From assembly GCA_039111635.1 (NCBI GenBank), contig JBCAQO010000002.1, forward strand, positions 434,001 through 498,000: a DNA stretch of 64,000 nt, given 5' to 3'. The translations under genes and the position numbers were made by a program. Shown here in pieces: positions 9,870 to 59,617 of this stretch. Within the stretch, counting starts at the first letter, position 1; every line of letters begins with the position of its first letter. The DNA comes from Heterobasidion occidentale. Its lineage: Eukaryota > Basidiomycota > Agaricomycetes > Russulales > Bondarzewiaceae. The notes below the pieces were generated by a model that saw only the letters and a list, made by a program, of their open reading frames with translations, was not told where the DNA came from and did no database searches.

Positions 9870-10253
9870 CGTGGGTGACGATGTCGAGGAGCGAGGCGGC
9901 GACAGCGGAGGCGTGGGGTGTGTGTGGCGCGGGACAAGTGCCCGGTGGTCGAGCGGCTATCGCGGCGCGAGCGTGTGCGAGTGTTCGAGGCTGAGTCCTC
10001 CACATAATTTTCGTATCTGCCTTTCTGGGACACCTCCTCTTGCACGCTCCCTTCACAAGGCAGTCGTCGTTTTATCTAATGTCTTTCTGTCGTCAAGACC
10101 CGCAAGCCACCGTTCAATGCCTCGATGCTTCCATCTTGCAGACTCATTTCTCCACGTGATTGCATCAGGCTCTCATCTCCGCCACCACCGACCCTGAACC
10201 TCCCTGAACTCCCCAAACTCTCCCTAAACTCATCCTCCTACCTACCTACCACA
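9870..10253. promoter_or_regulatory. bidirectional promoter, CDC73 (-) / IPK (+)
   Basis: Only 384 bp separate the CDC73 start codon (9869, minus) from the IPK start codon (10254, plus), so this interval should carry both promoters and 5' UTRs. The IPK-proximal part is pyrimidine-rich (cctcctacctacctacc before the ATG). The duplicated IPK copy at 16.2 kb lacks this region except about the last 10 bp. Confidence 0.6.
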
Positions 10254-11510
10254 ATGACAGACACCCCGCCCACCCCACCCGTCGACATATCAGCCGCACA
10301 CGCCCTCGCCAGCCAAGTCGGCGGCCACGCCGGCGTGCTCACCACCGAGGACGGCTCGCTCATCATCAAACCCGCGCTCGCGCTCGAACACCAGTTCTAC
10401 CAGCACGCGGCCGCAGATGCGACGCTCGCGCCTCTGCGGCGGTGGATACCGCGCTTCATTGGGACGCTGAGGCTGGAGGGGCAGACGGGCGCGGGGGGCG
10501 AGATCGAGATCGGCGGTGCGGCGAGTACAGGCGCGGGCGTGCAGAAAGATGAGTGCGATCCCCCATCGGCGGGCGTGCCGCGTGGCTGACGTGCGCGCGC
10601 GCGCGCCCTGCACAGTCCCTCGTGCTCGAGAACCTCGCGCACGCGTTCGCGCGGCCGAACATCCTCGACGTCAAGCTCGGCACCGTGCTCTTTGACGAGG
10701 CCGCCCCGCCCGAGAAGCGCGTGCGCATGGAGAAGACCGCGCGCGAGACGACGTCCGCGCAGACGGGCGTGCGGCTCACCGGGTTCCAGGTGCGCCCCTG
10801 CGCTCGTTCTGCTTTGCGGCTCCGCGCGCGGCGGCTTTGCTCACGCGCCGCGCCGCGCCGGGCAGGTGTTCGACAACGCGACGCGCGCGCCGGTCAACAC
10901 GCCCAAAGCGTACGGCAAGTCGCTCGCGCCCGCCGACCTCCCCGCCGGCATCGCCAAGTTCTTCCCCGTCGCCGTCGCCGCCCCCGATTCGACCCCCGCT
11001 GCGCCCTCGTCCTCTCCCTCGCCATTGGACGCGCCGCAGAATACAGGCCTCCCCGCGCGCACGCTCCTCCCGATCCTGTCCGCCATCATCCACGACGTGC
11101 GCGCCGTGCGCGCGGCGCTCGCGGGCGTCGAGATGCGCATGGTCGGGGGGAGCCTGTTGGTCGTGTACGAGGCGGAGTGGGCGCGCGCGGCGGCGGGCGT
11201 CGAGTGGCTGGCTGCGCACCCGGATGGCGCGGATGAGGACGAAGAAGACGATGAAGATGACGAGGAGGAAGAGGAAGAGGAGGACGAAGAGGAATCCCAG
11301 GAGGAAGAGGAGGGTGTGCAGAAGCCTGGGCCGCCCTGCATCGTCCGCCTCATCGATTTTGCGCACACGCGCCTCAAGCCGGGCGAGGGCCCCGACGCGG
11401 GCGTGCTCCAGGGCGTGGACACGATTCTGCGGCTGCTGCAGGGCCGCCTTGCGGAGGTGCAGGCAGCCGCAGAGGCAGAGGTGAGATCAGAGGCGGATGC
11501 AGAGGTTTAG
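10254..11510 (+). CDS. inositol polyphosphate kinase (IPK family), intact copy
   Basis: Kinase of the inositol polyphosphate kinase superfamily (Kcs1/Arg82/IP6K-related), phosphorylating inositol phosphates in the cytoplasm or nucleus. Proposed exons are 10254-10538, 10616-10789 and 10866-11510 (367 aa). The first intron boundary is less certain; an alternative donor at 10575 would give a 41-nt intron. The signature PxxxDxKxG is seen as PNILDVKLG, followed by TARETTSAQTGVRLTGFQV and YGKSLAPADLPAGIAKFF. The C-terminus has IVRLIDFAHTRL with the catalytic-site IDF. An uninterrupted acidic tract of Asp/Glu (about 11233-11313) splits the C-terminal lobe. It is the first gene of a tandemly duplicated segment; the second copy at 16247-17469 is a pseudogene. 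Confidence 0.9.
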
Positions 11511-12078
11511 ATCAAGGTATATAGAAGAGGGCGCGCGGACGCGCGCGCTGTATAGTATGTGTGGACGTGTGTGCTAGAGGAGGCTAATTCATCGGCTTTT
11601 AGACGGACAATGAGCGATCCTGTCCGAGACGACGAGGGCGAGCTGAACACCTTGGTGATCACATCTCTCTCCACTCCGTCGATGCAACTACTGAGCTCTC
11701 CAGCGCGTCGCATGCGCGCGGCTGCCTCCTGGCTCTCGCAATGCGCGAATATCGGGGATTCGAAGGCCGCGGGCTTCGAGCGCGTGACCAGCTCCGCGAG
11801 CCCTGTTCAGAGATTTTCTTTCCTGTTGACGTCGACGACCACATGCGGTGGACTCATGGCCAGGCTGAACTGTATGTGCTACCCATGAGGCAAGTCAAAG
11901 CCTACTTAGCTGTCTCTGCGACATGACCTGAGGTGCGTAAACCTTTCAAAGAGGCTCACCGGGACCCCGCTCGTCGAATGACGCCACGATGCGCCACGAT
12001 GCTCCTTATCGTGCTGTGATCCGCCGACGACTGTAGGCAAGTACCTTGCTGGTTACGTGCAGGCGGGTGCACAGTTCT

Positions 12079-12308
12079 CGACTGGCAGCCTCGGTGTTTC
12101 CGAACATCGGCTGGCAGCCTGAGAAATCGTGTTCGAGAGACAGACAGGAGCTTTGCGCATGCCCTAAATTGTTTCCAGCGGAAAACAGCTTTCGACTGGC
12201 AGCCCCAGTGTTTCCAAACACCGGCTGGCAGCCTGAGAACTCGCGTTCAAGAGACAGACGGGGGCTTTGCGCATGCCCTACATCGTTGCCAGCGGGCAAC
12301 AGCTTCGA
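12079..12308. repeat. 114-bp tandem duplication (two units)
   Basis: Two direct units begin with cgactggcagcc at 12079 and 12193. They share blocks ctggcagcctgaga, gagacagac and gctttgcgcatgcccta. Period is 114 bp (38 codons), so a minus-strand frame reads through as two 38-aa repeats. I see no start context or family and treat it as non-coding. Unit B of the large duplication (about 18078-18200) has only one unit, so the event happened after or independently of the large duplication. Confidence 0.7.
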
Positions 12309-12542
12309 GAACTCCGCCATCGTATAGAGAGCAGAGTTCCCGTTCCGCTTCAACGTGCGAGATATCTGTGCTAAGTAGGATCTCGACTAGACCAACAGCC
12401 TAGCTGTGGCAATCCTCAAGGAATGACATCGAGGTCAACACGGAAGAGTGGCCGTCTGATACAAAAAACGAGTTTATTTGGGGGTCGTCAGCGCGGCTGC
12501 TCCTACCACCACCGCAAACCCTCTTGATTATCACGAATCACA

Positions 12543-12650
12543 ATGCAGACAAAGGCCATATTGGCCGCTTGCGCCGCTGTGCTCGCCTCAAGTTCTATCG
12601 CTGCTGCCACTTCCGTTGACCCTCCGACCAACAACTTTGCAATGATGAAG
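12543..12650 (+). pseudogene. P1-A, truncated small secreted peptide gene (exon 1 only)
   Basis: Exon of exactly 36 codons beginning MQTKAILAACAAVLASSSIA, a typical signal peptide, then a Pro/Asn-rich stretch ending AMMK, followed by a GT donor at 12651. The paralogue P1-B at 18420 has an identical 36-codon exon 1 layout and a clear exon 2, but here the downstream exon is missing. The sequence after the donor instead matches unit B sequence near 19,480, implying a deletion of about 0.9 kb. A short alternative end (acceptor about 12671, ERAQTL then stop) cannot be excluded. Confidence 0.6.
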
Positions 12651-12722
12651 GTATGGCCTGTACCACGGAGGGCGAACGAAGGAGCGGGCTCAAACACTGT
12701 AAAGTAATAACACTCCCCTATT

Positions 12723-13683
12723 TCAACACCCTTCGGCCACAAAGACAGAATTGTTAAAATGTGTCTTAATGCGGTGCTCCCTCGCCCAGTCCTGAATCCT
12801 CTCGAAATTTCGACACGTGTGCATGACACCGCCTGAAGGCACCGACAACTGTGACGCTTCATCCCACACCCAAACAATGGTGCTAATATCGGACGAACAC
12901 ATGAGTGACTGGCGAATGCTGTCGAGGCAGTGGCTGAGGTGATCGGGCGCCAGAAATTTTGCCTGAATACGACCACTGTAGTACTCGGGATTGAGTGCCC
13001 ATCTGATGATATTCTATACAGATGGCGTCGGGGTCAGGTAGAGGTACGCGATAGACGAAAAGCTTACGAGACAGTGCAGCTCGTGGAAGACATCCAGTGT
13101 GACAATATAATTGCGTTCGTCTCCGGGAATGGGTCTTGTTCTGTTTGTCAACCGCGCAGCCTGGCTCTTCGGTATCTGCGATATCCCGACTGCGAAGAAA
13201 GAATTACGATTGTGAGTTGTCCCGATGAACCAAGAGATGCACGTTCAGCCATACAACTATAGAGTTCCTCCCAAGCTTCATCTACAGCATCCGACGGCGG
13301 TCCTTGATAGATCGTCTGTTCAGACCCGAATCCACTGATCCATCTGTACGCTTGATACTCAAGAACCTCCTGTGCTGGCGCTAAATGGAAATGTGAATAA
13401 TGAGACAGAGTGGAAACCACTTAGATGTACACATACAATACAGAGCTTGTGGGAAGATTGCACTTCGCGGCCCCCGGTGCAAATCGGCGTAGAAGAGAGA
13501 CAGAATGACAAGGATACACAGGATCACTTGGGCGGTGAGAGCGACTGTCACAAAGCAGCGACGCCACATCGTCCGGCGGTCGGGTCTCACAAATAGTTCT
13601 ATAAGCTTCGACGCCTCAGCATTTCCGATGCTGTCGTCAGTGGGGGAAATAAGGGGGAGAAAATCCACAGAATTGTTTCGCAT
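12723..13683 (-). CDS. UstYa family (DUF3328) oxidase
   Basis: Type II membrane-anchored oxidase of the UstYa/DUF3328 family, whose studied members cyclise or oxidise precursor peptides in fungal RiPP and related pathways in the secretory route. Exons on the minus strand are 13683-13437, 13380-13255, 13189-13068 and 13013-12723; 261 aa with all GT-AG junctions in frame. Residues about 40-62 form one transmembrane segment (VALTAQVILCILVILSLFY). Then come the family blocks YSPAQEVLEY, SGFGSEQTIYQGPPSDAVDE, LYSFGISQIPKS and PIPGDERNYIV. Both diagnostic metal-ligand motifs HxxHC are intact: HELHC at 160-164 and HLSHC at 190-194 (followed by LDSIRQSLMC). Neighbours are the small secreted peptide genes P1-A and P2-A. 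A degraded copy lies in unit B. The family is clear; substrate is inferred only from context. Confidence 0.92.
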
Positions 13684-14540
13684 TCCTGGGAGTTTGTTGT
13701 TGTGGAGGAGGTTTAGATGTTCCTCTTATGAGGCCCGCCTAGACTGGGTGACTTCAGACCCAATATGTATTGCATGGCCTTGTCGAGACCGCTAGCAGCT
13801 GTGGATCTATCAGAGAAGTCAAAGTGATTTGTCTCTGCAGATAGTATTGGGTAATCGTGTTGTTCATGATGACCCTGCTACATGGTCAGCTGGTGAGATG
13901 ATAGATGACGGGACAATCGTTGTCCTACGCCTTGAACAGTGATCTTTCTGGCATCTAGAGGAGAAGGCGATCTACGCTCAAAGATAGAGGCAAGTATCTT
14001 ACTGTCTCTGGGCGGGTTGAGCCTTATTTTCGGTGCAGAATAAAAGTTCTAGACAGCCCGAGAAATGATTCCCTTCGAGAGTTTGCGCATGCGCGAAAGC
14101 GTCGCTTGGTTAGTTCCTTGGAAGTTCGATGTCCTATCGAGAGCATAGCCTTCTGTAACATTTCCGGTATAGCATATGATATCTCGAGACTAGTGGAGAC
14201 GTCAGCATATAGTGGAAGTAAAGGATTACCGTCATCATGCTGATTACACTGACCAGATGACGGAACATGATAGCCATTGACGCATCCGTTTTCGAGTCTT
14301 CTAGAAGATCCTTTCGCAGCATCAGCATCTCCACAAACTCTGGACGGCATGAGGAAATTCGTGCCAAAATCTGTTCCGCGTGCCAACATAAAGATTAATA
14401 GGAAGTTATCATGCCTAAGAAGACCATCGGTGAGAAAGCGCGAAATCCTAATTTGGCCACAACAAATCTAGTCTAAGACATGACTGAATGGCCTCAAGTA
14501 CGACAGAAACAGGGTCAGCATGGGGAAGTAATGCTTCAGA
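13684..14540. other. UstYa upstream region with unrecognised conserved segment (about 14030-14470)
   Basis: Between the UstYa start and the P2-A promoter. The minus strand at about 14470-14030 has open stretches (FGTNFLMPSRVCGDADAAKG and a hydrophobic HLVSVISMMTVILYF) that align, with indels, to unit B at about 20150-19800 (PNFLGRPGFYGHIDAVKNGA). The shared wording suggests a former or multi-exon gene present before the duplication, but no family is recognised and no continuous reading frame can be built. Confidence 0.35.
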
Positions 14541-14547
14541 TATAAAA
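14541..14547 (+). promoter_or_regulatory. TATA box of peptide gene P2-A
   Basis: tataaaa, 78 bp upstream of the P2-A start codon, inside the block agatataaaaggcgagctc. The same block upstream of P1-A (12458) and P1-B (18328) reads gatacaaaaaacgag and gatacaaaaagcgag, and in dead P2-B it reads gatagaagaggcgag. P1 and P2 thus share promoter ancestry, and the box is ruined in P2-B. Confidence 0.6.
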
Positions 14548-14618
14548 GGCGAGCTCATCTCAAGGACGTTTAGCAGCCTCCATCACACCACTAGACTGAA
14601 ACCTCCTCGACCACAAAA

Positions 14619-14915
14619 ATGAAGTTCATAGCTATCTTCGCTGCTTGGGCCGTCACTCTCGCCGGGACTGCTATGGCCGCTCCTACCAGTAACGTAGAGC
14701 TAGTGAGGGTATGCTTAACTCGACTGGCATTCACCGTGTTGTCGCAAGCGATCTAACGACTACCTCGTTGCGCAGGAGCGGGACGTTGACACTGGTTTTG
14801 GAATCTACAACCATGCAAAGGTGGAGTTGCATTGATGATATCTCACAACAAGTTATTCAATGATCTTAAGGCTTTCTAGAAAGACGATGACGACAATTAT
14901 GCTCACCCCGACTAG
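14619..14915 (+). CDS. P2-A, small secreted peptide (candidate RiPP precursor)
   Basis: Three exons, 14619-14708, 14776-14820 and 14880-14915, give a 56-aa protein; introns of 67 and 59 nt have GTATGC..CAG and GTGGAG..TAG ends. If the second intron is retained the protein ends as KVELH at 14839. Residues 1-20 (MKFIAIFAAWAVTLAGTAMA) form a signal peptide with cleavage before APTSN. The mature part has VRERD, then VDTGFGIYNHA, a KK pair and an acidic tail DDDDNYAHPD. A TATA box lies 78 bp upstream. Exon organisation (signal peptide plus xPTSN in exon 1, R-D start of exon 2) matches P1-B, so the two are old paralogues. The gene lies about 0.9 kb from the UstYa gene. Function unknown; a substrate role for UstYa is my inference. 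Confidence 0.65.
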
Positions 14916-16231
14916 GAATGCATGGTAGAATTGTGCCTATTCTCTTTTGAACGTTTCAGGCTAATAGTACACATTCTCCTATGGCTTGAAGATCGCCTGA
15001 TCCCCTATGGACACAAGGGGATTTGTTTGTGGCAAAGAATATAAATTTGATGGTTGACCTTGATGAAACTGAGATAGCATAAGCGTGATAAGGAAATTTC
15101 AACTGCCGTAGGGGTTCGGGAAGGGTTACAAGGGCAGAAGAGGGTGTCAGATTATATGAAGCAACAAGTGGATGAAGACGAACCGCTTTATCCCTCAGCA
15201 CTGATTAAAGTGTACCAGAAAGGTCTTCCAGGGCGCATTCGAAAATATTCCAGAATGTGGAAATGGCGAGCCGTTCACGAAGTCGGGCTGGCGAATTTTG
15301 AGCGCATCTGAGTTATAGTACATCTACTTCAGGGCTAACGCACCAATGTACAAGCAGCATTTAGTCATCGACTTGCACTGATATTCACATGAATCGTCCT
15401 GTGAAAGGCCGCATCAGTGTTGTATCGTGCCCAGACGCGACCATGGGCGATCAGCTTACTCTGATCAGAGTTTTCCCCCACGCGGACAATAATGACGGAG
15501 AACATAGGCACGCTACGATATGTATGAGGAAACCAGCGTAGAGTCAAGTGAATGGAGCAGGAAGAATCTGGAGGCAGGATGAGCCGTGGATTCAGAGCTA
15601 GGAAGAGACCCACCCCATCAAGTCCTCATTGATATGCCATGCATAGACTATTTATCAGCCTGCTGAGGAGACCAAGACTGAATCAGAGCGTGTCGGTGTC
15701 GTGGCGAGTTGTAACCCTAACCTCAAACATCTACTCGCTCGTCGCGTCTACTCGCGTACGTCCTCCGACGTTGACCCTCACGAGAGACTTTTGAGATCGA
15801 TGCCCATTGTTTTCGCTGCGAACCTCTCCATTAACATATTATGCGTTTGACCCATCCATGCGAGTGGAAAATCTTGATTTAAAAGCCATCGTTGACTAGC
15901 AGAATGCTGAACAGTAAATTCGGTTTCTCAAGTAAGTGTCTCCAGGCTTCCACTATTGAGCGCTGCCAAGACTCGAACACTCACATAGTTTATAGGTTTA
16001 TCTCTGGCCCAAGTGCATTATCCATCTCATGGTACGGCAAGACATTCCGTGCAGGGTGTCCGGACTTCGTACGCTCACGATGGCCATGTCAGTGGTCACG
16101 ACACTTTTCCCTCAAGATACTTGAGACACATCAATCAGAAGCGCCGTCCAGGTGACCTTCAACTGCACACCACTTGGACGTTTCGGGTCTTTGTTGCAGT
16201 GTTATCCTTGTTCGCCTGGCAGGGAGGGTTA
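14916..16231. other. unrecognised region, end of unit A
   Basis: No supported gene. Minus-strand open stretches at 15613-15365 (including SCSIHLTLRWFPHTYRSV and IAHGRVWARYNTDAAF) and 15201-14956 look protein-like and align to unit B at about 21290-20700, where they are more broken. They may be exons of one decayed or unknown minus-strand gene. The last part, 15890-16231, is well conserved in unit B (21560-21846) without an obvious product. Confidence 0.35.
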
Positions 16232-16246
16232 TGACCTCCTACCACA

Positions 16247-17469
16247 ATGACAGACACTTCGCCCACACCCCCTGTCGAAATGTCAGCTACGCACGTGCTC
16301 GCCAGCCAGGCTGACGGCCACGCTGGCATGCTCGTTATAAAGCCCGCGCTTGCGCTCGAGCACCAGTTCTACCAGCAGGCGGCCGCGGACCCGGCGCTCG
16401 TGCCTCTGCGGCAGTGGATACCGCGCTTCTATGGGACGTTGCAGCTGGAGGGCAGGACGGGCGCGGGGGCGAGATCGAGGTCGGCGGTGCGGCGAGTACA
16501 GGCGCCGCTGTGCAGAAAGATGAGGATCTTTTCTTGTCGGCGGGCATGCCGCGAGGCTGACGTGCGCGCGCTCGGCCCTGCACAGTCCCTCATGCTCGAG
16601 AACCTCGCGCACGCGTTCGCGGGGCCTAAAATCCTCGACGTCAAGCTCGGCACCGTGCTCTTCGATGAGGACGCCCCGCCCGAGAAGTGCGCGCGCATGG
16701 AGACGACCGCGCGCGAGACGACATCCACGCAGACGGGCGTGCGGCTGACCGGGTTCCAGGTGCGCCCCTGCGTTCTGCTTTGCGGATGCGCGTGGCGGCG
16801 CATCGTGTAGGTGTTCGACAACGCAACACGCGCGCCGGTCAACACGCCTTAATCGTACGGCAAGTCCCTCGCACCGCCGACCTTCCGCCGGCATCACTAA
16901 TTTTTTCCCCGTCGCCGCCCGTTCAACTCCAGCTACACCCTCGTCCTTTTCCCCACCCTCTCTCTCGCCCTTGCCCTCGGATCCGCCGCAGAATACAGGC
17001 TTCCCCGCGCGTACGCTCCCGATCCTGTCCGCCATCATCCGCGACGTGCACGCCGTGCGCACCGCGCTCGCGGGCGTCGAGATGCACATGGGCGCGCGCC
17101 GCTGCGGGTGTCGAGTGGCTGGCTGCGCATCCGGATGGCGTGGAGGAGGATGAAGATGGTGATGATGATGATGGCGAGGACGAGGGAGAAGAGGATGAGG
17201 AAGAGGAAGAGGAAGACCAGGGCGAGGAGGAAGACGAGGACGAGGACGAGGACACGGAGGAGGAGGGAGAGGGTGTACAGAAACCTGGGCCGCCCTACAT
17301 CGTCCGCCTCATCGACTTTGCGCACACGCGCCTCAAGCCGGGCGAGGGCCCCGACTCGGGCGTGCTACAGGGCGTGGACACGATTCTTGAGCTGCTGCAG
17401 GGCCGCATTGCGGAGGTGCAGGCAGCCGCAGAGGCAGAGGCGAAATCAGAAGCGGCTGCAGAGGTTTAG
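16247..17469 (+). pseudogene. inositol polyphosphate kinase pseudogene (duplicate of 10254-11510)
   Basis: Degraded copy of the IPK gene. Exon 1 starts MTDTSPTPPVEMSATHVLAS and tracks the parent until a lost G near 16468 shifts the frame. Exon 2 keeps PKILDVKLGTVLFDEDAPPE and ARETTSTQTGVRLTGFQ. Exon 3 has an in-frame stop (TAA about 16850) right after APVNTP, further indels around 16880, and a deletion of the segment around 17085-17100. The acidic tract and IVRLIDFAHTRL near the end remain open. It lacks the parental promoter. Confidence 0.88.
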
Positions 17470-18419
17470 ATCAAGGTATATAGAAGAGGACGCGCGGGCG
17501 TGCGCTGTATAGTATGTGTGGACGTGTGTATTAGAGGAGGCTAATCTATCGACTTTAGACGGGCAGTGGGCGACTGTGTCCGAGATGGCGAGGGCGAGCT
17601 GAGCACCTCGATGATCAATTCCCTCTCCGCTCCGCCGATGCGACTACTGAGCCCTCCAGCGCGTCGCATGCGCGCGGTGCCTCCCAGCTCTCGCAATGCA
17701 AAAACATCAGGGAATTGGAAGGCCGCGCGCGTCGCGCGCGTGACCAGACTCTCCGCGAGCGCTGTTCAGACATTCCGTTTCCCGCTGACCATAGACGACC
17801 ACGTGCAGTCATCTTGCGGCCAGGCGGTACTGTATGTGCTGGCCATAAGGGAAAGCCAAAGCCTACTTGGCTGTCTCTGCGATATGACAGGTGCGCCGAC
17901 CTTCCAAAGAGACTCGCCGCGACCCTGCTCATCAATTGACGGCACGATGCCACATGAGGCGGCTTACCATGCTGTGATCAAAACGGTGCTTTGTGTGCAT
18001 TTGAAACAAGGTCAGGTGTCGTCGACAATTGTAGGCAATTACTCTTGCCGATTCCGTGGAGGTGAGTGCACCATCTTCGACTGGCAGCCTCGGGGATTCT
18101 GAGCATCCGGCGGGAGCCCAAGAAATCGTGTTAGACAGAGAGAGACAGACAGGGGCTTTGCGCATACCCTAAATTGTTGCTAACGGGAAACAGCTTCGAG
18201 AATTTTGCCGTCGTATAGGAGGCATAGTTCCCGTTGTGCATTAGCGTGCGAGGTATCTGTCCTTACTGGGACTTCAGCGGCAATACTCAAGAAATGGTAC
18301 CGAGGTCAAAAGGTAGAGAGGCCGTCTGATACAAAAAGCGAGTGAATCTGGGAGTCGTCTAGCAGGCTCCCTACGCATGCCATCGCATCTCCAAATCATC
18401 CTGACCATCGTAAATCGCA

Positions 18420-18720
18420 ATGCAGACGAGAACTATATTGACCGCTTGCGCCGCTGTGCTCGCTTTGATTTCTATCGCTGCTGCAGCCGCAGCGGACACT
18501 CCGACCAGCAACACTGCATATTTGAAGGTAAGGCCTGTGCTGCTTATGCATAATGACCACCGCGCAGCTGTCTTTCCGAAGATGATCTGACGACAGCGGG
18601 GCATTGGTCCTACAGAGAACGGATGACAACAGTGTGGATCCGGTCCACATCGTATGGAAGCACCCGACCGATCTGCAACCGCGGAGAGAGAAAAACGTTA
18701 ATTGTGCGATAGACAATTGA
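18420..18720 (+). CDS. P1-B, small secreted peptide with Kex2-type sites (candidate RiPP precursor)
   Basis: Two exons, 18420-18527 and 18616-18720, with an 88-nt GTAAGG..CAG intron; 70 aa. Exon 1 encodes a signal peptide (MQTRTILTACAAVLALISIA, cleavage likely in the following Ala run) and then DTPTSNTAYLK. Exon 2 starts with R, so splicing creates a KR dibasic site (YLK|RTDD). A second dibasic, RR, follows DLQP. The segment between, TDDNSVDPVHIVWKHPTDLQP (21 residues) would be released by kexin. The tail EKNVNCAIDN follows. This is the layout of fungal secreted propeptides processed by Kex2 and of dikaritin RiPP precursors, but with one core rather than repeats. Neighbouring UstYa in unit B is degraded; the intact one is 5 kb upstream. 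Confidence 0.62.
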
Positions 18721-19479
18721 ACCGCGGCGGGCGAACAGGTAAGGATCCCACGATATCGACTCCTCGCAGATAGCTCGATGACGCATAAATCGTGCAGAGA
18801 AGAGTACCGTCGAACCCAGAGATAAAGTCCGACGAAAGAGTAGGGACATCCACCATCTCTTTTCAACCCTTTGTGCTGATACGCCTGTCGTTTGAATAAG
18901 CCAATGTGACGCGGCCGCCTCAGCTCTTTGTCAATTCTTGTCAGCGTACTTTCGAAATATATTGTTTCTGTTGGTCAATTCTTTCTCGTGTGCCCGGAAG
19001 AGCTCGGGTGTTAGACGTGATGCAACGGCAGTAAGATTTTCATAGCGCCATGTTGTGACAGAACGGAAAATGTGTGGTCAAATGGAATATCCCTGCCAGG
19101 AGTGGCAAGTGCGTATGTATGGATCCACCTACCCTTTACCGCTAGCATCATACGACCGCAGAGGTCTTCCCGGTGTATTGCCTGAGATTCAAATGTGTCT
19201 TGCACAGGTGCTAATGACGGGATGTAAGTAGGAGAGAAAAGTGAGTAAGAAGGTACTGTATTGGTGTTCAGTGTATCAGGCGGAAAATGCTGACGTACAA
19301 GACAGAGTGTTGGAATGTGCGCAAAGTGGAGATAGAGAATGCTGAAGCTGTTCATAGGGTAAAGTATATGCCGATTTCATGAAACCGGAAACCCAGATCC
19401 TAGAATGAAGGTGTGCACAAAGGTGAGCAATTTCTCTGTTCGGTCGTGTGAAGCGCTTGTTCCTTTCCTATCCCACGGA
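18721..19479. other. unit B-specific stretch, no gene seen
   Basis: Sequence present in unit B but missing from unit A between P1 and UstYa. Open frames on the minus strand (for example 19355-19011) show no recognisable family. Confidence 0.4.
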
Positions 19480-19790
19480 GACAAACGAAGGAGAAGGTTC
19501 AGACACTGCAAAGTAATAGCACTCCCCTATCTCAAAATTCGTAGGCTACGAAGCGGCACGATGAGGGTGCACTCATATCAGATACTATGAGTACGACAGG
19601 TGAGAACTACGAACGCACAACTTGAGGAGAGATTGCAATGCGTAGACCCTCACGATAATTCAGAATAGACGTGGAAGATCGCGAAATACCTAGGCGGTGG
19701 GAGCACTTATCATGAAGAAGCGACTTGACTGACTGTCAGCAATCCTATGAATTTCCCCCAGCACTGTCGGACAGGCATGTCATAGTGAGT
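19480..19790 (-). pseudogene. degraded UstYa trace in unit B
   Basis: Unit B sequence aligns to the UstYa gene of unit A only at its ends. 19482-19525 matches the 3' end (caaagtaatagcactcccctat against taaagtaataacactcccctat). 19688-19727 matches exon 1 around the transmembrane segment (cctaggcggtgggagc against cttgggcggtgagagc). Exons 2-4, including both HxxHC motifs, are absent. Confidence 0.45.
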
Positions 19791-20284
19791 TCATTGATAA
19801 GAGGGCTCAGTGCGCGCCTGATATACTCTGACTAGATGTTTTAGTGTCAAGTGGCTCAGCATATGGTACTCTTGAGACTACGGAAGCTGTCAGCACATGA
19901 TGGAAGCCACGATTATTTGACCACAGTACTTACCATGTTCATGCTAGTCAACTGACCATATGACGGAATGTGACAGGTATTCGCGACGCATCTAGTATTC
20001 AAGTGTCCTAGAACATGCAATGAGTTCATTCAAATATCTCACTGCGCCATTTTTTACAGCATCAATATGTCCATAAAATCCCGGACGGCCAAGGAAATTT
20101 GGTTCTAAATCCTTCCGCGTGCTAACTTGGAGATTGGAAAGCAGTTGACATGCTTTAGCCCTGAGAAGATCACCATCATATGGAGCGCACCATTTCTAGG
20201 TTGACCACAGTGAATCTAGTCAAAGACATGACTGAACAACCTCGATTACGACGAAAACAGACGGTCAGCATGGGCGGTGCTCCG

Positions 20285-20465
20285 ATAGAAGAGGCGAGCT
20301 CATCTGGAAGACGTTTAGCAGCCTCCTCTACTGAAACCTCCTCGCTGCTTGCGCTATCACCCTCGCCAAGACTGCTATGGCTGCTGTGATCTAACGACTA
20401 CCTCGTTACGCAGAGGTCAAGACGTTGATTCTGTCTATTATCTTTACGAGGTAGAGTTGCTTCGC
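20285..20465 (+). pseudogene. P2-B, dead copy of the P2 secreted peptide gene
   Basis: Aligns to P2-A promoter, exon 1 and intron: ggcgagctcatct, tttagcagcctcc, ctgaaacctcctcg, tgctatggctgc and taacgactacctcgtt are shared. The start codon and most of the signal-peptide codons are deleted, the TATA box is mutated and the acceptor is followed by frame-changing indels. Not expressible as a secreted peptide. Confidence 0.6.
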
Positions 20466-21932
20466 CATGTTGTCACAAAGCGATCTAACGACCTACGCAA
20501 AGGGGAAAAGACGTTAATATGCCTATATATACGATGCACCAAAGGTAGAGATGCATTAAGGATGGCTCATGGAAAGTTATCAAACGACATTCGAGCTTCA
20601 CAGAAACGAGATAGAGATTACCCCAACTGGAATTACACAGTGTGAGTGCGCCTATTCTCTTTCGAACGTTCTGGGCTGATGGACACATTCCTGCATAGAT
20701 GCCAGGTCACGGATCTCCTATGAATGACTCGTTGGAGTTTGTCTGTAACAAAGAATATAAGCTCCATGGTCTCCCGTCACAGAAATGATGTGGCTTGAGC
20801 GTGATGAGGAAATCTTACCTGTCGCAGGAGTTATCGATCTGCTGGGAAGGACTACTAGGAAAGAAGAGGATGTCAGATTATCAGAAGTAACAAATAGATG
20901 AAGATGAACCATGCTCTCCCTGGGACCCTCAGCACTAAAATGAAGTGCGCGAGAAGCGTCTACCACCGGGGTGCCCTCGAAGATCTGCCAAACCGTGGAA
21001 ACAATAAGTGTGCAGCTATCCTTGCAGCCGTCGTCATCCATGCTCAAGATCGGGCCAGCGACTCGAATCAAGCATGGTAGCGCGTCCGAGTTGCACCCAC
21101 TCCAGGACTGAAGTGCTGACTCGCTGAAGTACAGGCGGCCTTTCGTCGTTGACTTGCACTAATGCCAAGTTGACTCGTCCTGTGAGAGAGCTGCATCATG
21201 CCCGAGCGTCAACTTACTCAAACAAAAGTGTTATCCTTCACGAACAATGACGATTGAGAACGGATCTGAGGCGCATCATGATGTGCGAGAGAGAAATCAG
21301 TGTAAATCTCAAAGGAACCTGAAGCCGGGAGAAGCCGTATTGGGTGGAGAGCCAATTGTAACCCCAACCTCAAACATCTACTCGCTCTTCGCGTCCTTCG
21401 ACGTCGACGGTATGATGTTCGAGACAGACTTTTGAAATCACTAATTCTTTTCGCCACGACCCTCTAATCATATCTCTACGCATCCACCCATTCATGCGAG
21501 CTGAGAAATTCTGCATCAACCACTACGTGGACTGGAAGAACGTTGAACATATCTTGAATCGGTTTCTCGTGTGAGTGTCCCACTGTCGAGCACTGTCAAG
21601 ACTCAAAACACCTCACGAGTGTAAGTTTTCTTTCCTCGAATACCAGGTGCATTGTTCTTTTCATGGTTCGGAAAGACGTTCTGCACAGAGTGTCCAGACT
21701 CCGTACGCTCATGATGGCCATGTCACGGCACTTGTCCTTAGATGCACCAATCAGGGGCGCCGTCCAGGTGACTTTCAACTGCACGCCGCGTAGACGTTGC
21801 GGGTCTTCGTTGCATTGTCATCCTTGTTTTGCTGGCAGGGAGGGCTACGAGCGTGTCTTGCATCAAAAACAAACGACGTGATTCGTAACTTGGATCTAAC
21901 AGCAGACCGGAGGTCGTGCATGCTAGCGGGGT

Positions 21933-23425: not shown

Positions 23426-25644
23426 ATGATGATGCGTCTGCTTGCTGTCGTTCTTCCTTTGCTATCCTCCTCTGGACTTGCTCTTGGCAGAATCCCAGAT
23501 GGACGTCTGCACGCAAATACACCTCCCAGGCCAGGCATTCCTCGCATTGCCGCGCCAACAGGTCCTGTTGTGCATGCGTCGTCAGCCGCGACACTTCCTC
23601 CATACAACACAACGTACTACTTCGACCAGCTTATAGACCACAACGATCCCAGCTTGGGCACGTTCAAACAACGGTACTACCACACATGGGAGTTTTACGA
23701 GTCTGGCAAGTTATTTATCAATGTCGATTTTTAGCCAAACACCGCTGACATGGGTCAATTTTCAGGTGGACCGATCATATTGTTCACTCCGGGGGAAGAG
23801 AACGCTAAAGGTAGACCATTCTCGCTGATGCATCGTTGACCTTCCTCTCACATTGTCTCGTGAACAGACTACATTGGGTACCTCAGGAACTCGACTATAA
23901 ACGGCAAAGTAGCTCAGCAGCAAACTGGCGCAACGATCGTTCTTGAACATCGGTTTTATGGGTCCTCGAACCCGTACAACAACCTGTCCGTCGCGAGCTT
24001 GAAATACCACACAATTCAACAAGCGATCGACGACCTCGAGTACTTCGCAGAGAACGTCCAGCTGGCTATGCCCGGCGGAGATGCTGTTGCGCCTGGTCAA
24101 GCGCCCTGGATTTTGTTCGGCGGGAGCTATAGCGGTAAGCCGTCTAATTGAAAACCGACGCACAACCCTCTAATCTTAAATCCAAGCCGCACTGACAAGT
24201 TATACAATGGTCAAGTAAGTCGGCCTTCACTAGCTCTTCGACAATTGAACTAAATATTTCCTACTAGTAAACCTGGCCTTTTCTGGGCTGGGTATGCGTC
24301 TTCTGCAACCGTGCAGAACATTGTGTAGGTGAAGTCACCTTCCCAGTCGACTAACCTCACATTCTTCACATTTCTTTATAGCGACTTCTGGGGATACTTT
24401 GAGCCTATCCGCCAATCTATGGCCAAAAACTGCTCCGCCGACGTTGAGGCGGTGATTGCGCACTTTGATAATGTCTTCGAGAACGGGACGCAGTCTGAAA
24501 TCGATGCGCTCAAAGACGAATACGGTATGGCAAATGTTACACACCTCGACGATGTCACGGGAGCATGTACGTCTCACTGATTCTGACTGCGTTACTCAAG
24601 CGATTGACCGTCATTTGGCCAATTTTTAGTGCGCAACAACCTATGGGACTGGCAACTCTTGGAACCTTCTTCAGGTCCTGGGACCAAGTTCTTCAATTTC
24701 TGCGACGCTCTGGAAGTCAAAGACGGCGTCAGCGCATCCGAGAGCGGCTGGGGCGCTGATCATGCTATCAGCGCTTGGGGATCGTACTTCAAGAACACTT
24801 ACCTTCCGAAACGTAAGCGGTCACTGAGTGAACAGTCCCAGCGTGATGCTGATTGTCCATCACAGTCTGTGGCACAGTGAACGCAGAGTACGTCATTCCG
24901 GCAGGCTATTGCTGCAATTTCGGAAGACTGATATATCTCCTTGAATAGAGATTGTCTCAGCACATATCTATCAAACCAGACCTTCTGGACTGATATCTCG
25001 GTCGACAATGCTCAGCGATCGTGGTCTTGGATAGTGTAAGTTCTTTGAAAAGAGGTTACATCTCATAACTTAACGGCGACTGGGATTTACAGATGCAATG
25101 AAGTCGGTTTCTTGCAGGTTGGAGCGCCAGCCGATCATCCCACCCTCGTATCTCGCCTGAACACCGTGGCAACTGAAGCGGTCAGTTTGTCTAAACTTCC
25201 TACCTTGCAAATTCAGACTCACATATTGTATAAATGCAGAGGCAATGTCAGGAACAATTTCCTGCTGCATGGGACTCAACACCTACGATCGACGTCGAGA
25301 AAACAAATGTGGCATACCACGGTTGGAATGTCACGGTTGACCGCCTTTTCTTTGCCAATGGCCAACGTGCGTGTCTATCGCAGAGTCTTGGGGTGTTCAT
25401 TGAATTCCTGATTTACTCCTCCATTGCAGGAGATCCATGGCGCGAGGCAACGCTTTCTGCCGACGGCGTGAACGTTCAGGGTACAGAGAGCCAGCCGGTC
25501 GTAGTGAGCGATGGCTTCCACTGCTCGGACCTTCTCACTAGGAACGCGCTGGTCGACGATACAATTCTCGATGTGCACACCCAGGCGTTGGCTAGCATGA
25601 AAACGTGGTTGGCGGACTGGACGCCGACCAGCTCCAAGCGGTAA
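23426..25644 (+). CDS. secreted serine carboxypeptidase-like protein, peptidase family S28
   Basis: Family S28 (lysosomal Pro-Xaa carboxypeptidase/dipeptidyl-peptidase II type) secreted peptidase cleaving near proline. Twelve exons: 23426-23705, 23766-23810, 23868-24134, 24187-24214, 24268-24324, 24382-24566, 24630-24812, 24866-24887, 24949-25035, 25093-25180, 25240-25366 and 25430-25644; 527 aa and fully in frame. Signal peptide MMMRLLAVVLPLLSSSGLAL. Domain starts YYFDQLIDHNDPSLGTFKQR. The nucleophile is Ser195 in GGSYS; catalytic Asp458 lies in GQRDPW and His487 in DGFHC. Several N-glycosylation sequons occur (NST, NLS, NCS). Intron 1 has a GC donor (G|GCAAGT at 23706). Family call is firm. 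Confidence 0.93.
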
Positions 25645-26227
25645 TTGGGCGGAGCCTTGCATAAGAAAAGCTATCCGATTAAGAGAGACGAGTAGACATT
25701 TTACGCGCCTTGACGAGTACGAATATGGAATGAGAGTTAGGACTGCAGTGGCATCATTTGAACGCGACATTTTGGATGTAGAATCTCACCTTGAGACTGC
25801 ACAGGCGAGTTGCCCGCTATGCACGCCTAGTAGTCTAGGCAGTGGAATATGCATATGTTGCTAATGCGAGAGTAGACGCATATACTGTCGACATTCTTCA
25901 CAATTTCCCAACCTTACTCTCGTGAAGTCGGCGTGAGACTATTTTATTAAGAGCTTGGAGAAGTATCTCTTCCCATAGGTCGCTGCCGGTGACCCAAAAT
26001 CTATAAGGAGCCAAGCGAAGAGAGAAGGGGGGTAATTCGCTAATCAAAAGGTACGCTGTGCTCACTTATTAGGATATTCGACATAAGTAAATGACACTTG
26101 CTCCCCTATGGTCCGTCCACCGTAATGCTATTCAGTAATCAAAGATACTCGCCGCGATTTATCCTTAGGAAGGAAAACCGTATCAACATAGGCGAGGAAA
26201 CACGCATGGGACCACGCGAGAGTCGGA
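25645..26227. other. convergent intergenic, S28 and SUV3 3' ends
   Basis: Between two convergent stop codons. AT-rich in parts (for example 26030-26100). No gene seen; it must contain both 3' UTRs. Confidence 0.5.
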
Positions 26228-33556: not shown

Positions 33557-33656
33557 NNNNNNNNNNNNNNNNNNNNNNNNNNNNNNNNNNNNNNNNNNNN
33601 NNNNNNNNNNNNNNNNNNNNNNNNNNNNNNNNNNNNNNNNNNNNNNNNNNNNNNNN
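33557..33656. other. assembly gap (100 N)
   Basis: Run of 100 N. Left-hand sequence aligns to copy 2 near 43003 and right-hand sequence to copy 2 near 45592, so about 2.6 kb of Gypsy sequence (RNase H, integrase, chromodomain, start of the extra ORF) is missing here rather than 100 bp. Confidence 0.95.
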
Positions 33657-51763: not shown

Positions 51764-52947
51764 ACCCCCCAAATGCCGTCGTGTATCTTATTTTCCGCTT
51801 CCCTTCACTTCCCATCGATTTTCAAGCCCTTCATACCACGCCTCTCAAGCTTTTGGGCATCGCACCATAAAGCATGCCAGTCAATACATTCATAACCTGC
51901 ACATAAATCAAGTCAAGCGTTTGAGGGGTGTTCTTCAAGTGCCAGCGTCATTATTGAGCAGATTGGTGAGTGGTGGGACGGGCACGAGGAGTCCAAACGG
52001 GGATGATATCCACCCTCTCGTCTCATTCGCAACGGATGAATTGCTTGCCGCTCTTGTGAGTCTCTTCCGTCCGCAGAGCTTGTTCTGGACCATAGGAGCG
52101 GTTTCGTCTGGCTGACTTTCTTTTCATGACAGAGGCAATCAGCCCCAAACACTGAACAATGACCACTTGATTTTGTCTGCATTGAACCTCTCCATGTGAA
52201 CAATATCTTTCACTTGCGACGAGAGAAGTCATGGTGGTCTGTCTCGCTCGAGCTCTTATGTGACAACTTCATAGGCTATATCCACAAGCGAGTGTCAGAC
52301 CACATCCCCACATCGTTCTACCTAGCGTTGTCGGCATCGACCTCTTCGCCGGCGGTCCTCTGCGTGCGCAGGCAATAATGAGAACGCCAGCAACGATGCA
52401 ATAGGTGACTTTCGCACGAATTGTCTCTTCACGTTGACAGTTCGTCTCCAACCCCGATGCTCTGTACAGGTAAATTTGATTGGGATGCGACAAAGACACG
52501 CTTGGTTCAAATCAACACAAGTGGTGATCTCAATGTGAGAGAGACGCAAATATTGTCCACAATTCCCTCGTTTTCATGACGCTCCCTGAAATATTGAGAC
52601 GCTCGCGTCAGACAGAGACCGGACATAGCCGCATAGGACGAAATAGTCGCGTTCATGCCGAGTCCTGCCGAGGCTCGCTGCGCACACTCTGCGCACTGCG
52701 CCCGAGTGCAAATCGTGCTCTGAGCTCTTTTTCACAACGACTCTCTGTCAAGACCATCACTGCTAGAGATTCCGATTCATCAATAACCTAGTTTTCTTGG
52801 CTTGAACTACGAAGCACGCACACACGCACCAAGTAGGTCAGCACATCCATACGATGCCGATGTCATCAAGAACGCTCAATCCTGTTCATCTATAGCATTG
52901 GTGGGGAAGACTCACATTGCTGCCCCCTCGTGAATCACGAATCCACA
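51764..52947. other. intergenic MRPS33 to F-box 1
   Basis: About 1.2 kb without a supported gene. Short open frames on both strands have no recognisable content. The right part (about 52800-52947) resembles the region upstream of F-box 2 (57270-57435), for example gaagcacgc and a nearby gtaagt- or gtaggt-like site, so it probably includes promoter, 5' UTR and a possible 5' UTR intron. Confidence 0.45.
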
Positions 52948-54794
52948 ATGGTAGGGCTCCTTTCGACACTTTCACTGCCACAGCACTGACGTCCTTTTAG
53001 GAAGAAGCTCAGTCCGTATCGCGTCCTGCTACCTATCGACTCAATCTATTCGACTCGCGCAACGTCAACCAAATCGCGCGACTCCTCCTCATACCCGATC
53101 TAGATATCAGGATTGCTGCATCTCGAGCACACAACGAGGCATTGCCCATTTCACAAATACCAAACGAGGTATTGGAGAAAATTTTCCACTTCTACCTCGA
53201 TGGACAGGAGAATCGGTACCAGATGAGGATCCGAGGAGGACACCATGTATGTGAACCGCTGGAACCGTATCCGAAATGGTTCAAGATCACTCGTATCTGT
53301 AGTCGATGGCGTCGCGTTGCGCTTGGCTATTCTAGCTTGTGGTCTACCATTGCCTACGATTCTAAGAGGTGGTTTGACCTCTGCATCGAAAGACTACCTC
53401 CAAATCAGGTCATTGATGTTGCTCTGTATAACATCATCGGCGTTCACATCAATCAAACCATGATTTGTTCACAGATTGGACGCATCCGCACACTAGATAT
53501 CGAGGGATATGAATATTTCATGAGCCTTTTCTTGGATGGCCTCACTGGCCCGGCCCCTGCACTCGAAAAGATGTCTTTAACTATAAGATATGAATATGTG
53601 CGCGGCGGCCACAGACCTGTAGTCATTCCTACAAATTTTATCAAGAGCGCCTACCGTCTCACCGAATTGACGCTAGGTGATGGAGTTTGGATAGAGGATG
53701 GATCATATACTTTGGCCAGTTTAACACACCTTCGAGTGAGATCCAGTGTCACGATTCCTAAACTACAATCTCTGCTTCAGAGGGTCCCGCATCTACGCTC
53801 CGCGAACATCGAGTGGATCGATCAATTCTCTTCGCGCATGAATCATCCTGACTCAATAGTCACAGTGACATTGCCCGATCTGCAGACTCTCCGTGCGACC
53901 TTCCGTCTAGATACTTCAACAGGTGAACTCACTGCCTTTCACTTGCTCCCTAACCTCCGCCTCCCTTCGCTTGCATGCTTGCACCTCGTCAATTATCTAG
54001 ACTGTACCTCTGTGGAGGTTTTGGATCACATGACAACTGCTATGTTGAGGTTCTTGGGACAGCCGAATGCGTTGCCACGTTCTGTTCGCAGCATCGTCCT
54101 ATATTATGATGGCAAACAAGAAGAGAGGCTCCAGTGTTTTTCGTGGGCCGAAGGCGGGAGGACAACAAATTTACCGCCCGACGACATCCTTGCCCCTGTC
54201 CAATCTCCATTCTGTTTTTCCTACGCGTGGCCCTACTACGGGCAGAGCCTAAAGACATCGAGGCTTTGCCAATTTCTAGATTCGATACTCAGGTTTATGC
54301 CTCTCGCGGACGTGCAGACCTTGACCTTAGGTTTGTCACACTGTGAATTTCCTGTGTCTTATTGGCTATCAGCGCTCAGAACTCTATCCCAAGTGGAAGA
54401 AGTCACAATCTATGAACATCGTGACTTAATCACCTTTCTCCGCGCTGCCACTCCTCCCATTGGCGGATGTTCGGGTGAATTTCTCTTTCCCCGTCTGAAG
54501 AGTCTCGTTATCAAACTTGCGAAGATGTCGAGACGCGGTCGACCGCTCGCTCATGCCTTATACCCTTTCATTGAGGGGCGAGGACTAGCGAATCTGCAGT
54601 TGAAGCAGTTGGACTTTGAGACTTCGAATGCCTTTCTTTGTCGGCTCAACAGGCGCTTGTATGGGAAGGTGAATGTGACTTGGAACGGGAAGAAGATGGT
54701 GCCGCACGTCGCTAAGTCAAATGGCCCTCGAGCGGTGGCGGATTCGATGTATGATGGGGGGTGGATGGATTTGGACGAAGGGTCTCAGGAGTAG
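52948..54794 (+). CDS. F-box protein 1
   Basis: F-box protein of the large basidiomycete family, probably a substrate adaptor of SCF ubiquitin ligases. Start codon 52948-52950 is followed directly by a 50-nt intron (52951-53000, GTAGGG..TTTTAG), then one long exon 53001-54794; 598 aa. F-box at about residues 48-105: LPISQIPNEVLEKIFHFYLD and WFKITRICSRWRRVALGYSS LW. The rest is leucine-rich without clear repeats (for example LQSLLQRVPHLRSANIEWID; FMPLADVQTLTLGLSHCEF). It ends DSMYDGGWMDLDEGSQE. Close paralogue of 57436-59267, with the same unusual start exon. Confidence 0.85.
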
Positions 54795-55409
54795 GCGAAG
54801 AGTGGTTTCACCGACATTTGGGGATAAATGTTCCTTATCTGTTGCGGCATTCTTGGTGATCGCCCTTGCATAGACAGCCCAGTGAAAACACAGAATATCA
54901 CCATCATGTATACAACAATGAAATCGATAAAACGTGTCGTGTACATAGTTGTACGACGTTCCTTACCACGGGAGATGCAGATACTGCGATGATGATCTTG
55001 AAGACGTCGTACAGAGGCAGCATGCGGTGAACGGGAGAAAAATGTTGAATATGCACATCTACCATTCGGTCAGCATAGGCAAAGTCTACAAGGTGCCTGG
55101 AAAAAAAATGTGGGATGGCAATGGGCTGGCAGGAATTGAGCAGAGAGTGTCCGGCAGCCGACCGCGTCCGACAAATACGTCACCTGGTTTCATCGCACTC
55201 TCGGCCTATCTCAGATTCCTACGCTCGCAACTTTCCTCGAGTCTGCTTCAAGTCGTCCCGCGGCCTTCCATCTCGCCTCCCGCCATGGCACAAGTAAAGG
55301 ATCCAACGACAGAGGCAAGCACGCGACATCGGCGAACCTCCATGAAAAACCTCGCTCTGCAAGCTCATCTCCGTCGTCGATCGGCCTGTCAAGGCCACTT
55401 GTCGGGACT
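54795..55409. other. intergenic after F-box 1
   Basis: 3' region of F-box 1 (54795-55100) resembles the region after F-box 2 (59268-59560): gcgaagagtggtttcaccga, gttgcggcattct and gatgatcttgaa/gaggacg are shared, showing the duplication included 3' flanks. No gene supported in the rest. Confidence 0.5.
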
Positions 55410-56836: not shown

Positions 56837-57435
56837 TCACTCACAAAGTAGGTAGAACGCGGGGTTCATCAGAGAGTAGGTAGAGCAGTTGAGAGGCAGA
56901 TCTCAGAGGCCTGGTTCTGCTTGGGCCCGGGCCGTTATATAGAGCGTGCGCTATGTATGCTCTGCACCATTGCTGTGTGATCGTTATATTCTATACCAGT
57001 GGCATGCTGCGCCAACATGATATCAAGTCTCACAGATCTGTCCAAATAGACGGGAGCCTATGGATATCCGGAGATCAAGTCGTAGGTTGAAGCTGAAGGA
57101 GGATTGCATCCCTTTCTGCCTTTGGGAGACTACCGGAGCGGAGCCTTGCCGAGCACTTGCCGAGCACGCCTGCAAGTGAGTCATCAGTGCAACTCGTGTC
57201 GGACTCGAGGCCTCTACCCTCACCCAAAACAACTGCATGTCAAGCTCATCACACTGAAAACGACACTCATCCAACAACGAACGACGAAGCACGCTCGTAC
57301 ACACAAAGTAAGTCGAACCAGGTCAAATCACGATTCACGATACTTATGTCAACTGACTCGACTTATGATTCAAAACAAGAATTTTGTCCCTCCATACCAC
57401 CAGCGCGACATTTCACTGCTGATTGGGACCTTTCA
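56837..57435. other. intergenic, upstream of F-box 2
   Basis: No gene supported. Probable promoter and 5' UTR with an intron-like segment beginning gtaagtcga near 57309. Confidence 0.45.
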
Positions 57436-59267
57436 ATGGTAAAGTTCTTTTAGATAATCTCGCTCTCACCGTTCTTATATCCTCTCAGGAAGAAGCTCAG
57501 TCCGCACCTCCTCCTGCCGATCTATCCGACTTGCGTAACGTCAACAGTGGACAGGATGTACAACACTTCATCATTCCCGATTTAAACTCCTCCATCGCTT
57601 CACTTCGAGCGCACAATGAATCATTACCCATCTCGCAATTGCCAAACGAGATGTTGGAGAACATTTATGACTTCTGCCTCGATGGATGGGAGTGGCAGCC
57701 CCACTACCGATCAATAAGAGACTTCTCTTGTTACAGACACTTCACTCGACAGTATCCGGGATGGATCCAGCTCACACATATCTGTAGCCGATGGCGTCGC
57801 GTTGCGATTGGCTATCATCGCTTGTGGTCTACCATTGCCTCCGATTCTAAACCGTGGTTCGACCTCTGCATTGAAAGATTACCTCCAAAGCAGATCATTG
57901 ATGTCGCTCTGGAAATCAGCAACACTCAGGTCGCTCGAACCATTCTCTCTCAGATTATTGGACGAATCCGCACACTGCATATCAAGGGATATTTTGATGC
58001 CATCAGCCATGCCTTGGATGGTCTCACTGGCCCGGCCCCTGCACTCAAACATATGTCTTTCACTATAAGTCTTGTGCGCGACGGCCACAGACCTGTAGTC
58101 ATTCCTGCAAATTTCATCAAGAGCGCCTACCATCTCACCGAATTAACGCTAGGTGATGGAATTTGGATAGAGGGTGGACCGTATACTTTGGCCGGTCTAA
58201 CACACCTTCGAGTGAAATCCCGTGTCACGATTCCTGAACTACAATCTCTGCTTCAGAGGGTCCCGCATCTACGCTCTGCGAAGATTGAGAGGATCAATGA
58301 ATACCCTTCGCGCATAAACCCTGACTCAATAGCGACAGTGACTTTGCCCGATCTGCAGACTCTCCGAGCAACCTTCTTTCCAGATCCCTCAACAGATGAA
58401 CCCACTGCCCTTCACTTGCTCCCTGACCTCTACCTCCCTTCGCTTGCATGCCTGCACCTCGTCAATTATGCAGACAATATGTCTGTGGAGGCTTTGGATC
58501 GCATGACAGCTACTATGTTGAGGTTCTTGGGACAGCCGAACGCGTTGCCACGTTCTATCCGCAGCATTGCCCTATATCACGGTGGCAAACAAGATAAGAT
58601 GCTCCAGTGTTTTTCGTGGCCCGAAGGTGGGAGGACAACAGATTTACTACCGGAAGACCTCCTTGGCCCTGTTCAATCCCAATCTCCGTTCAGTTTTTCC
58701 TACGCGTGGAGGCATTCTCGCAGACACCCAGAGACATTGAAGCTCTATCAATCACTTGATTCGATAATTAGGTTTATGCCTCTCGCAGACGTGCAGACCT
58801 TGACCCTGGGTTTGTCAAACTGGAAATTTTCTGTGCCTTACTGGCTATCAGCGCTCCGAACTCTATCCCAAGTGGAAGAAGTCACAGTCTATGAACATCA
58901 TGACTTATCCAACTTTCTCCGAGCCGCCACCCCTCCCATTGGTGGGCGTTCGGGTAAATTTCTGTTTCCTCGTTTGAGGACGCTCGTTATCAAAACTTCG
59001 AAGATGCCGAGACGCGGTGGAGCGCTTGCTCATGCCGTGTACCCTTTTGTTAAGGGGCGGCAATTAGCGAACCTGCAGTTAGATCAATTGGATCTTCAGT
59101 CTTCGAACTCCTTTTCAGGTCGGCTTAACAGGCACTTGTATGGGAAGGGGAATGCGACTTGGAACGGGAAGAAGATAGTGCCGTACAAGTTGAACGGCCC
59201 TCGAGCGGTGGCGGATTCGATGTATGATGGAGGGTGGATGGATTTGGATGAAGGGTCTCAGGAGTAG
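57436..59267 (+). CDS. F-box protein 2
   Basis: Paralogue of F-box 1. ATG 57436-57438 is followed by a 50-nt intron (57439-57488, GTAAAG..CTCAG), then 57489-59267; 593 aa. Protein begins M-EEAQSAPPPADLSDLRNV. The F-box LPISQLPNEMLENIYDFCLD and WIQLTHICSRWRRVAIGYHR come next. The shared body includes SAYHLTELTLGDGIWIEGG, IPELQSLLQRVPHLRSAKIE and FMPLADVQTLTLGLSNWKF. It ends DSMYDGGWMDLDEGSQE as F-box 1 does. Likely SCF adaptor of unknown target. The unspliced upstream ATG would be out of frame, so the intron is needed for the start. Confidence 0.85.
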
Positions 59268-59617
59268 GCGAAGAGTGGTTTCACCGACATTTGGGGACGA
59301 TTGTTTCATCTTTTTCTGTTGCGGCATTCTTAGCGATCGCCCTTGAATAGACAGTCTAGGTAAGACACTGAATGTCACCATCATGTTTACGATAATGCAA
59401 TCAACAAATTGTGTCGAGCACAGCATTGTTCCTACCACCGAGTACTAGGATGATGATCTTGAGGACGTAAAGGTGTAGCATGGGGTAAAGAGAAACGTTG
59501 AATATGCACATCCACTGTCAGCATTGGCGATGTCTAAAGGTACATGGAAGAAAATGTCACGTCCGTGAGAGACACTTGCTCTTGCTAGCGTCACAGGGAG
59601 AAACACACGTGGAAATT

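Follow-up and report, generated by a model that had tools for sequence, protein, structure and literature searches.

Dikaritins are ribosomally synthesized and post-translationally modified peptides (RiPPs) of the ustiloxin, phomopsin and asperipin-2a type. Their secreted precursors carry several repeated cores between possible Kex2 sites and are encoded next to a DUF3328/UstYa enzyme with two HxxHC motifs, and their products are cyclic peptides with side-chain cross-links. In the available excerpts of the sources cited here, the two HxxHC motifs serve as the class marker for DUF3328/UstYa (PMC12048977), the characterized dikaritins are listed under ascomycetes (PMC9233826), and PMC7329392 cites Ding et al. 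for precursor-like genes with DUF3328 neighbors throughout Dikarya. Among Basidiomycota, DUF3328 neighbors are reported for 103 of 1680 KEX2-processed repeat proteins (KEPs; PMC7329392). For lichen DUF3328 clusters that lack a repeat precursor (clans R1 and R2), the authors allow a single core (PMC12048977). Within these excerpts, no description of a single-core UstYa precursor was found. Here we describe such a candidate system in Heterobasidion occidentale, in a 64-kb stretch of DNA (C2:434001-498000, hereafter the window) from a genome of 45 Mb in 159 contigs. Among the best 120 of 2950 matches to a SUV3 helicase frame of the window, the leading named relatives come from Bondarzewia, Artomyces, Amylostereum, Multifurca, Dentipellis, Gloeopeniophorella, Auriscalpium, Lactarius and Russula (55-61% identity), which most likely places the fungus in the Russulales, with other Agaricomycetes not far behind; the top match is at 98% over 80%. 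An intact UstYa gene lies head to head with P2-A, a small gene for a predicted secreted peptide with one possible core. The pairing recurs on another contig, C11, and we propose that UstYa and the small peptide genes (P genes) may act together as a single-core peptide module.

The window UstYa gene is intact. The first-pass annotation of this DNA had reported such a gene with both HxxHC motifs, and this is borne out: the product matches PF11807 with 184.5 bits (curated cut-off 25), contains HELHC and HLSHC and has an N-terminal hydrophobic segment, and all three introns of the gene are GT-AG. A 261-aa version with a different second splice junction was used for this score and for the searches for relatives and against the PDB, and the 260-aa model (Table 1) was used for motif alignment. 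In that alignment of 40 sequences (the window and C11 proteins plus 38 of 120 listed relatives), H159, H162, C163, H192 and C193 are invariant and H189 is nearly so, and the window protein has all six residues. Among the best 120 relatives listed, the best-ranked named ones, from Mycena, Pleurotus and other Agaricomycetes, are 45-54% identical; the PDB search found no relative of solved structure by sequence (best E 0.97). PF11807 matches 19 places in the genome, which were merged into 17 genes in 9 groups. Comparison of the window and C11 copies gives a dN/dS of 0.33 (bootstrap 0.21-0.50), falling to 0.21 from about residue 79 onward, which indicates purifying selection on UstYa.

Small signal-peptide genes with split mature parts had also been described on either side of UstYa, together with a truncated P1-A, and we find the same arrangement. 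P2-A (predicted product 56 aa) and P1-B (70 aa) share a common plan, and P1-A has lost the stretch corresponding to the second exon of P1-B. Signal peptides are predicted by a hydropathy rule, and the splice models of the P genes were read by eye from the sequence. The first exon, of 30 residues in P2-A and 36 in P1-B, contains the predicted signal peptide and a leader of the form P-T-S-N-x-x-x-x-K/R. A phase-0 intron follows immediately after the leader K/R codon, and a short mature part comes next; GT-AG splice sites are kept in P2-A. Across the P genes the leader reads P-[TS]-[SN]-N-x-x-x-x-[KR] and ends at the intron. Under these splice models, a KR pair arises across the splice junction of P1-B, with RR farther on and the single possible core between them, and a KK pair arises across the second splice junction of P2-A, after the possible core.

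The specificity of this plan was assessed with an exon scan for signal-peptide-like exons of 24-42 aa whose last codon, next to a GT donor, encodes K/R, a filter shaped on the P genes themselves. Across the window the scan returned three places, which are exactly P1-A, P2-A and P1-B. Positions 12001-21000, simulated 100 times with a Markov model, gave a mean of 0.05 and a maximum of 1. When 95 kb from other UstYa loci was scanned, the C11 gene came up along with two further matches that lack the leader motif. Searching the genome with the leader pattern gave 23 matches, of which four were perfect (the genes from which the pattern was built) and 19 had one or two mismatches; the backward control gave 13. 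Read in frame, the mismatched matches have no signal-peptide exon in front and were rejected as further P relatives. An ordinary Pfam identity of the P peptides was also rejected, as matches were sub-threshold only and were put down to chance.

The closest paralog of the window UstYa lies at C11:170253-169299, with 197 of 256 aligned residues identical (77%). Head to head with it, as in the window, is a P-type gene at C11:170676, with a distance of 423 bp from ATG to ATG. A genome-wide protein search with the first exon of P2-A returned two matches, P2-A itself and this gene (E 0.198). The E value is weak alone, and the match is strong because of its position beside the closest UstYa paralog. 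The UstYa-P pair is therefore present at a second, unlinked locus. At E<0.001, the window and C11 align solely over UstYa (with ~135 bp upstream), the P promoter and first exon, and one small non-coding element. This element also lies at 19858-19880 and C11:171250-171272, making three places in the genome for a pattern built from those three; in the window it precedes P2-A, whereas in C11 it follows the P gene.

Conservation along the P genes was compared for three pairs (P2-A with C11, P2-A with P1-B, and P1-B with C11; 1000 shuffles each). The 120-bp promoters align, with z of 8.8, 6.6 and 5.5 in that order and 0 of 1000 shuffles in each case. The leader exons align as well (z 11.1, 3.8 and 2.7; 0, 2 and 11 of 1000 shuffles), and the 250 bp after exon 1 are not alignable (z 0.6, 0.5 and 0.3). 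For P2-A against the C11 gene, the exon-1 dN/dS is 0.35 (0.12-0.84; 484 of 500 bootstraps usable). On these sequence comparisons, P2-A, P1-B and the C11 gene are one gene family. Precursor families of modified peptides typically combine a conserved leader with a variable core. The pattern seen here fits such a plan, with the C11 mature part ambiguous and decay at C11 expected to look alike.

The window locus resembles dikaritin loci in several respects, as a UstYa gene with two HxxHC motifs adjoins genes for signal-peptide precursors (P2-A and P1-B, by the hydropathy rule only). Possible Kex2 sites depend on the splice models: P1-B has KR and RR, P2-A has only KK after the core, and the C11 gene has no dibasic pair. 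It differs in that P1-B and P2-A each have one possible core, a feature already proposed in the first-pass annotation and in agreement with a scan for repeats that covered the window together with 10 loci and found neither repeated cores nor a repeat precursor in the window or at C11. It also differs in accompanying enzymes, which are not present in all dikaritin members: the three tyrosinase matches in the genome are on neither C2 nor C11, and a six-frame search gave 0 matches to S41 peptidase, a search from which introns can hide genes. The earlier reading as a candidate RiPP-type locus stands in part. The P gene family and the recurrence of the pair at C11 favor it. Because no repeated cores, no nearby tyrosinase and no S41 peptidase were found, however, we do not class the locus among the dikaritins, and it is not a canonical locus of that kind, though it may function as a dikaritin-type system whose precursors each hold a single core. 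KEPs likewise combine a secreted precursor with a DUF3328 neighbor, but they are defined by repeats separated by Kex2 sites, and P1-B and P2-A have no repeats. The lichen clans R1 and R2 share a DUF3328 enzyme without a repeat precursor; no precursor is named in the excerpts of that source, whereas the window has named single-core candidates and a related gene at a second locus.

In the same scan, repeats were found only at two loci on contig C7. At C7:572439-572811 (minus), a Kex2-type repeat precursor has 5 units ending in MDF, with UstYa genes on either side at C7:565.3k and 574.4k. At C7:720144-720861 (minus), another has ~14 units such as DEDLEKTLSFRR, again flanked by UstYa genes (C7:717.2k and 722.2k). 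Both precursors have a signal-peptide exon and an intron, and in each UstYa pair both HxxHC motifs are found in one member only (single-frame scan). These are the clearest dikaritin-like loci seen in the genome and are of the KEP kind. Elsewhere, a tyrosinase match at C14:324001-324525 (27.9 bits) lies ~5 kb from UstYa genes at C14:317-319k; UstYa-tyrosinase pairing is familiar in ustiloxin-type clusters.

Self-comparison of the window revealed a tandem duplication that, like the P2-B relic, is absent from the first-pass annotation (Table 1). Each unit includes an inositol polyphosphate kinase (IPK; PF03770) gene, and the second copy has internal stops. In unit 2, UstYa is lost except for a 3'-end match at 19467-19553 and weak traces at ~19616-19724 (E 0.004 to 0.94), and the P2-B first exon lacks its ATG part. 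After the duplication, one intact copy is left of each of UstYa, P1 and P2. The IPK family has five matches genome-wide, one on C3 and four in the window. With no match on C11, IPK was rejected as a member of the module.

Table 1 Features of the duplicated UstYa-P region (window positions).
Feature	Position	Strand	Exons	Basis
Duplicated unit 1: IPK gene, P1-A, UstYa, P2-A	10240..16234			self-comparison, 78% identity over IPK part
Duplicated unit 2: broken IPK copy, P1-B, UstYa remnants, P2-B relic	16234..21850			self-comparison
P1-A, leader exon alone, with a deletion beside UstYa 3' end	12543..12650	plus		second exon deleted
UstYa/DUF3328 oxidase gene, 260 aa	12723..13683	minus	13683-13437, 13380-13258, 13189-13068, 13013-12723	profile match, motifs, splice model
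Short non-coding element between UstYa and P2-A	14171..14192	plus		window-C11 alignment, genome pattern search
P2-A, intact small secreted-peptide gene	14619..14915	plus	signal/leader 14619-14708, middle 14776-14820, last 14880-14915	splice model by eye
P1-B, frame intact	18420..18720	plus	leader 18420-18527, mature 18616-18720	splice model by eye
P2-B relic	20330..20640 (approximate)	plus		sequence comparison; doubling read by eye

We propose, with a probability of roughly 0.5, that the window holds a two-gene, single-core peptide module in which the P genes make secreted propeptides and UstYa, we infer, modifies them. In its favor also count the one intact copy left of each of UstYa, P1 and P2 after the duplication and the two C7 loci where UstYa genes flank Kex2-type repeat precursors. 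In each propeptide, a signal peptide would be followed by the short conserved leader and then by a mature part, short and variable. Signal cleavage would be expected to occur upon secretion, and splicing would set a basic pair before the core (K joined to R in P1-B, which also has RR) or after it (K joined to K in P2-A), where Golgi kexin could cut. The membrane-anchored UstYa, on the same secretory route, would recognize the P peptide and oxidize, or perhaps cross-link, an aromatic core residue, Y in P2-A and W in P1-B.

A more tentative extension, which we consider rather doubtful, is a basidiomycete RiPP-like system organized in cassettes. In it the promoter-leader exon would stay constant and be read by a dedicated UstYa, and the short core exons behind phase-0 introns would be replaced or duplicated, such that exon turnover, instead of in-frame repeats, would supply new cores. 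In P2-B, the tail of intron 1 is doubled (20388-20413 and 20480-20502), with a middle-exon-like stretch after each copy (by eye). This hint, from one relic, suggests that cores may multiply as exons. Surveys for UstYa substrates rely on repeats, and genes of the P1/P2 type would escape a repeat-based survey. If single-core leader-exon genes are substrates too, orphan mushroom UstYa may have precursors that were skipped by gene callers. In Pleurotus, 16 UstYa-like genes are reported, 6 of them developmentally expressed (PMC8893723). The leader exon provides a practical query for finding such genes, and a first natural comparison is available in the C11 pair.

Several observations weigh against a peptide module. 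Read by eye, the P gene on C11 lacks both a clear acceptor site and a dibasic pair; it may therefore be broken, in which case decay could account for the downstream loss of similarity. The search with P2-A exon 1 misses P1-A and P1-B, and unlinked, distant P genes may have escaped it. A TATA match is found only at P2-A, 78 bp upstream of its ATG, and at none of P1-B, P1-A, the C11 gene or either UstYa, and the exon-1 dN/dS of P1-A against P1-B is 0.54 (0.22-1.3), with neutrality possible. Among 5.8 billion public proteins, an alignment search gave no P relatives, as none of its 19 candidates scored at E<=10, although genes that are small, interrupted by introns and unannotated can be missed in this way. 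The missing repeats, tyrosinase and S41 peptidase count in the same direction, as does the presence of DUF3328 proteins in non-RiPP pathways, including polyketide and non-ribosomal clusters (PMC12048977).

These points leave room for other explanations. The P genes could encode small secreted signal or effector peptides acting in unmodified form, with their adjacency to UstYa due to block duplication, which we regard as possible although unlikely. A single block duplication could indeed have produced the joint C11 copy of UstYa and P, and linear, minimally modified peptides are reported for other Agaricomycete precursors (PMC9769878). Moreover, no other tailoring enzyme was seen in the window domain scan, which covered 20 open reading frames (18 of the 157 in one list plus 2 others, with most frames outside the scan and multi-exon genes partly covered). 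However, at a synonymous divergence of ~0.4 nearly all surroundings are unalignable while UstYa and P still align, and the IPK neighbor is not retained with the pair. The reported polyketide and non-ribosomal clusters would also be compatible with UstYa acting on another substrate (non-ribosomal, small-molecule or another peptide) and the P genes being unrelated. We consider this improbable, since the same scan found no polyketide synthase, non-ribosomal peptide synthetase or other tailoring domain, no tyrosinase match lies on C2, and the P pairing recurs at C11. Finally, the locus could be decaying, with P1-B and P2-A as functionless relics: P1-A, P2-B and the second copies of IPK and UstYa are broken or lost, and short frames can remain open by chance. 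Such decay appears very improbable given the purifying selection on UstYa, the TATA box and GT-AG splice sites kept by P2-A, and the leader dN/dS below 1 between P2-A and C11.

Other features of the window lie outside the duplicated block. Just beyond it, a serine carboxypeptidase S28 gene with a hydrophobic N-terminus occupies 23426-25760 (plus; limits by eye), and one exon piece matches PF05577 with 65.3 bits. A second duplication, 52946-55107 against 57434-59554, is 79% identical, with an F-box-like match just under the cut-off in the former copy and none in the latter. Ty3-type retrotransposon sequence extends over ~29400-50700, with gag and RNase H matches and several near-identical long repeats, and contains a run of N at 33557-33656.

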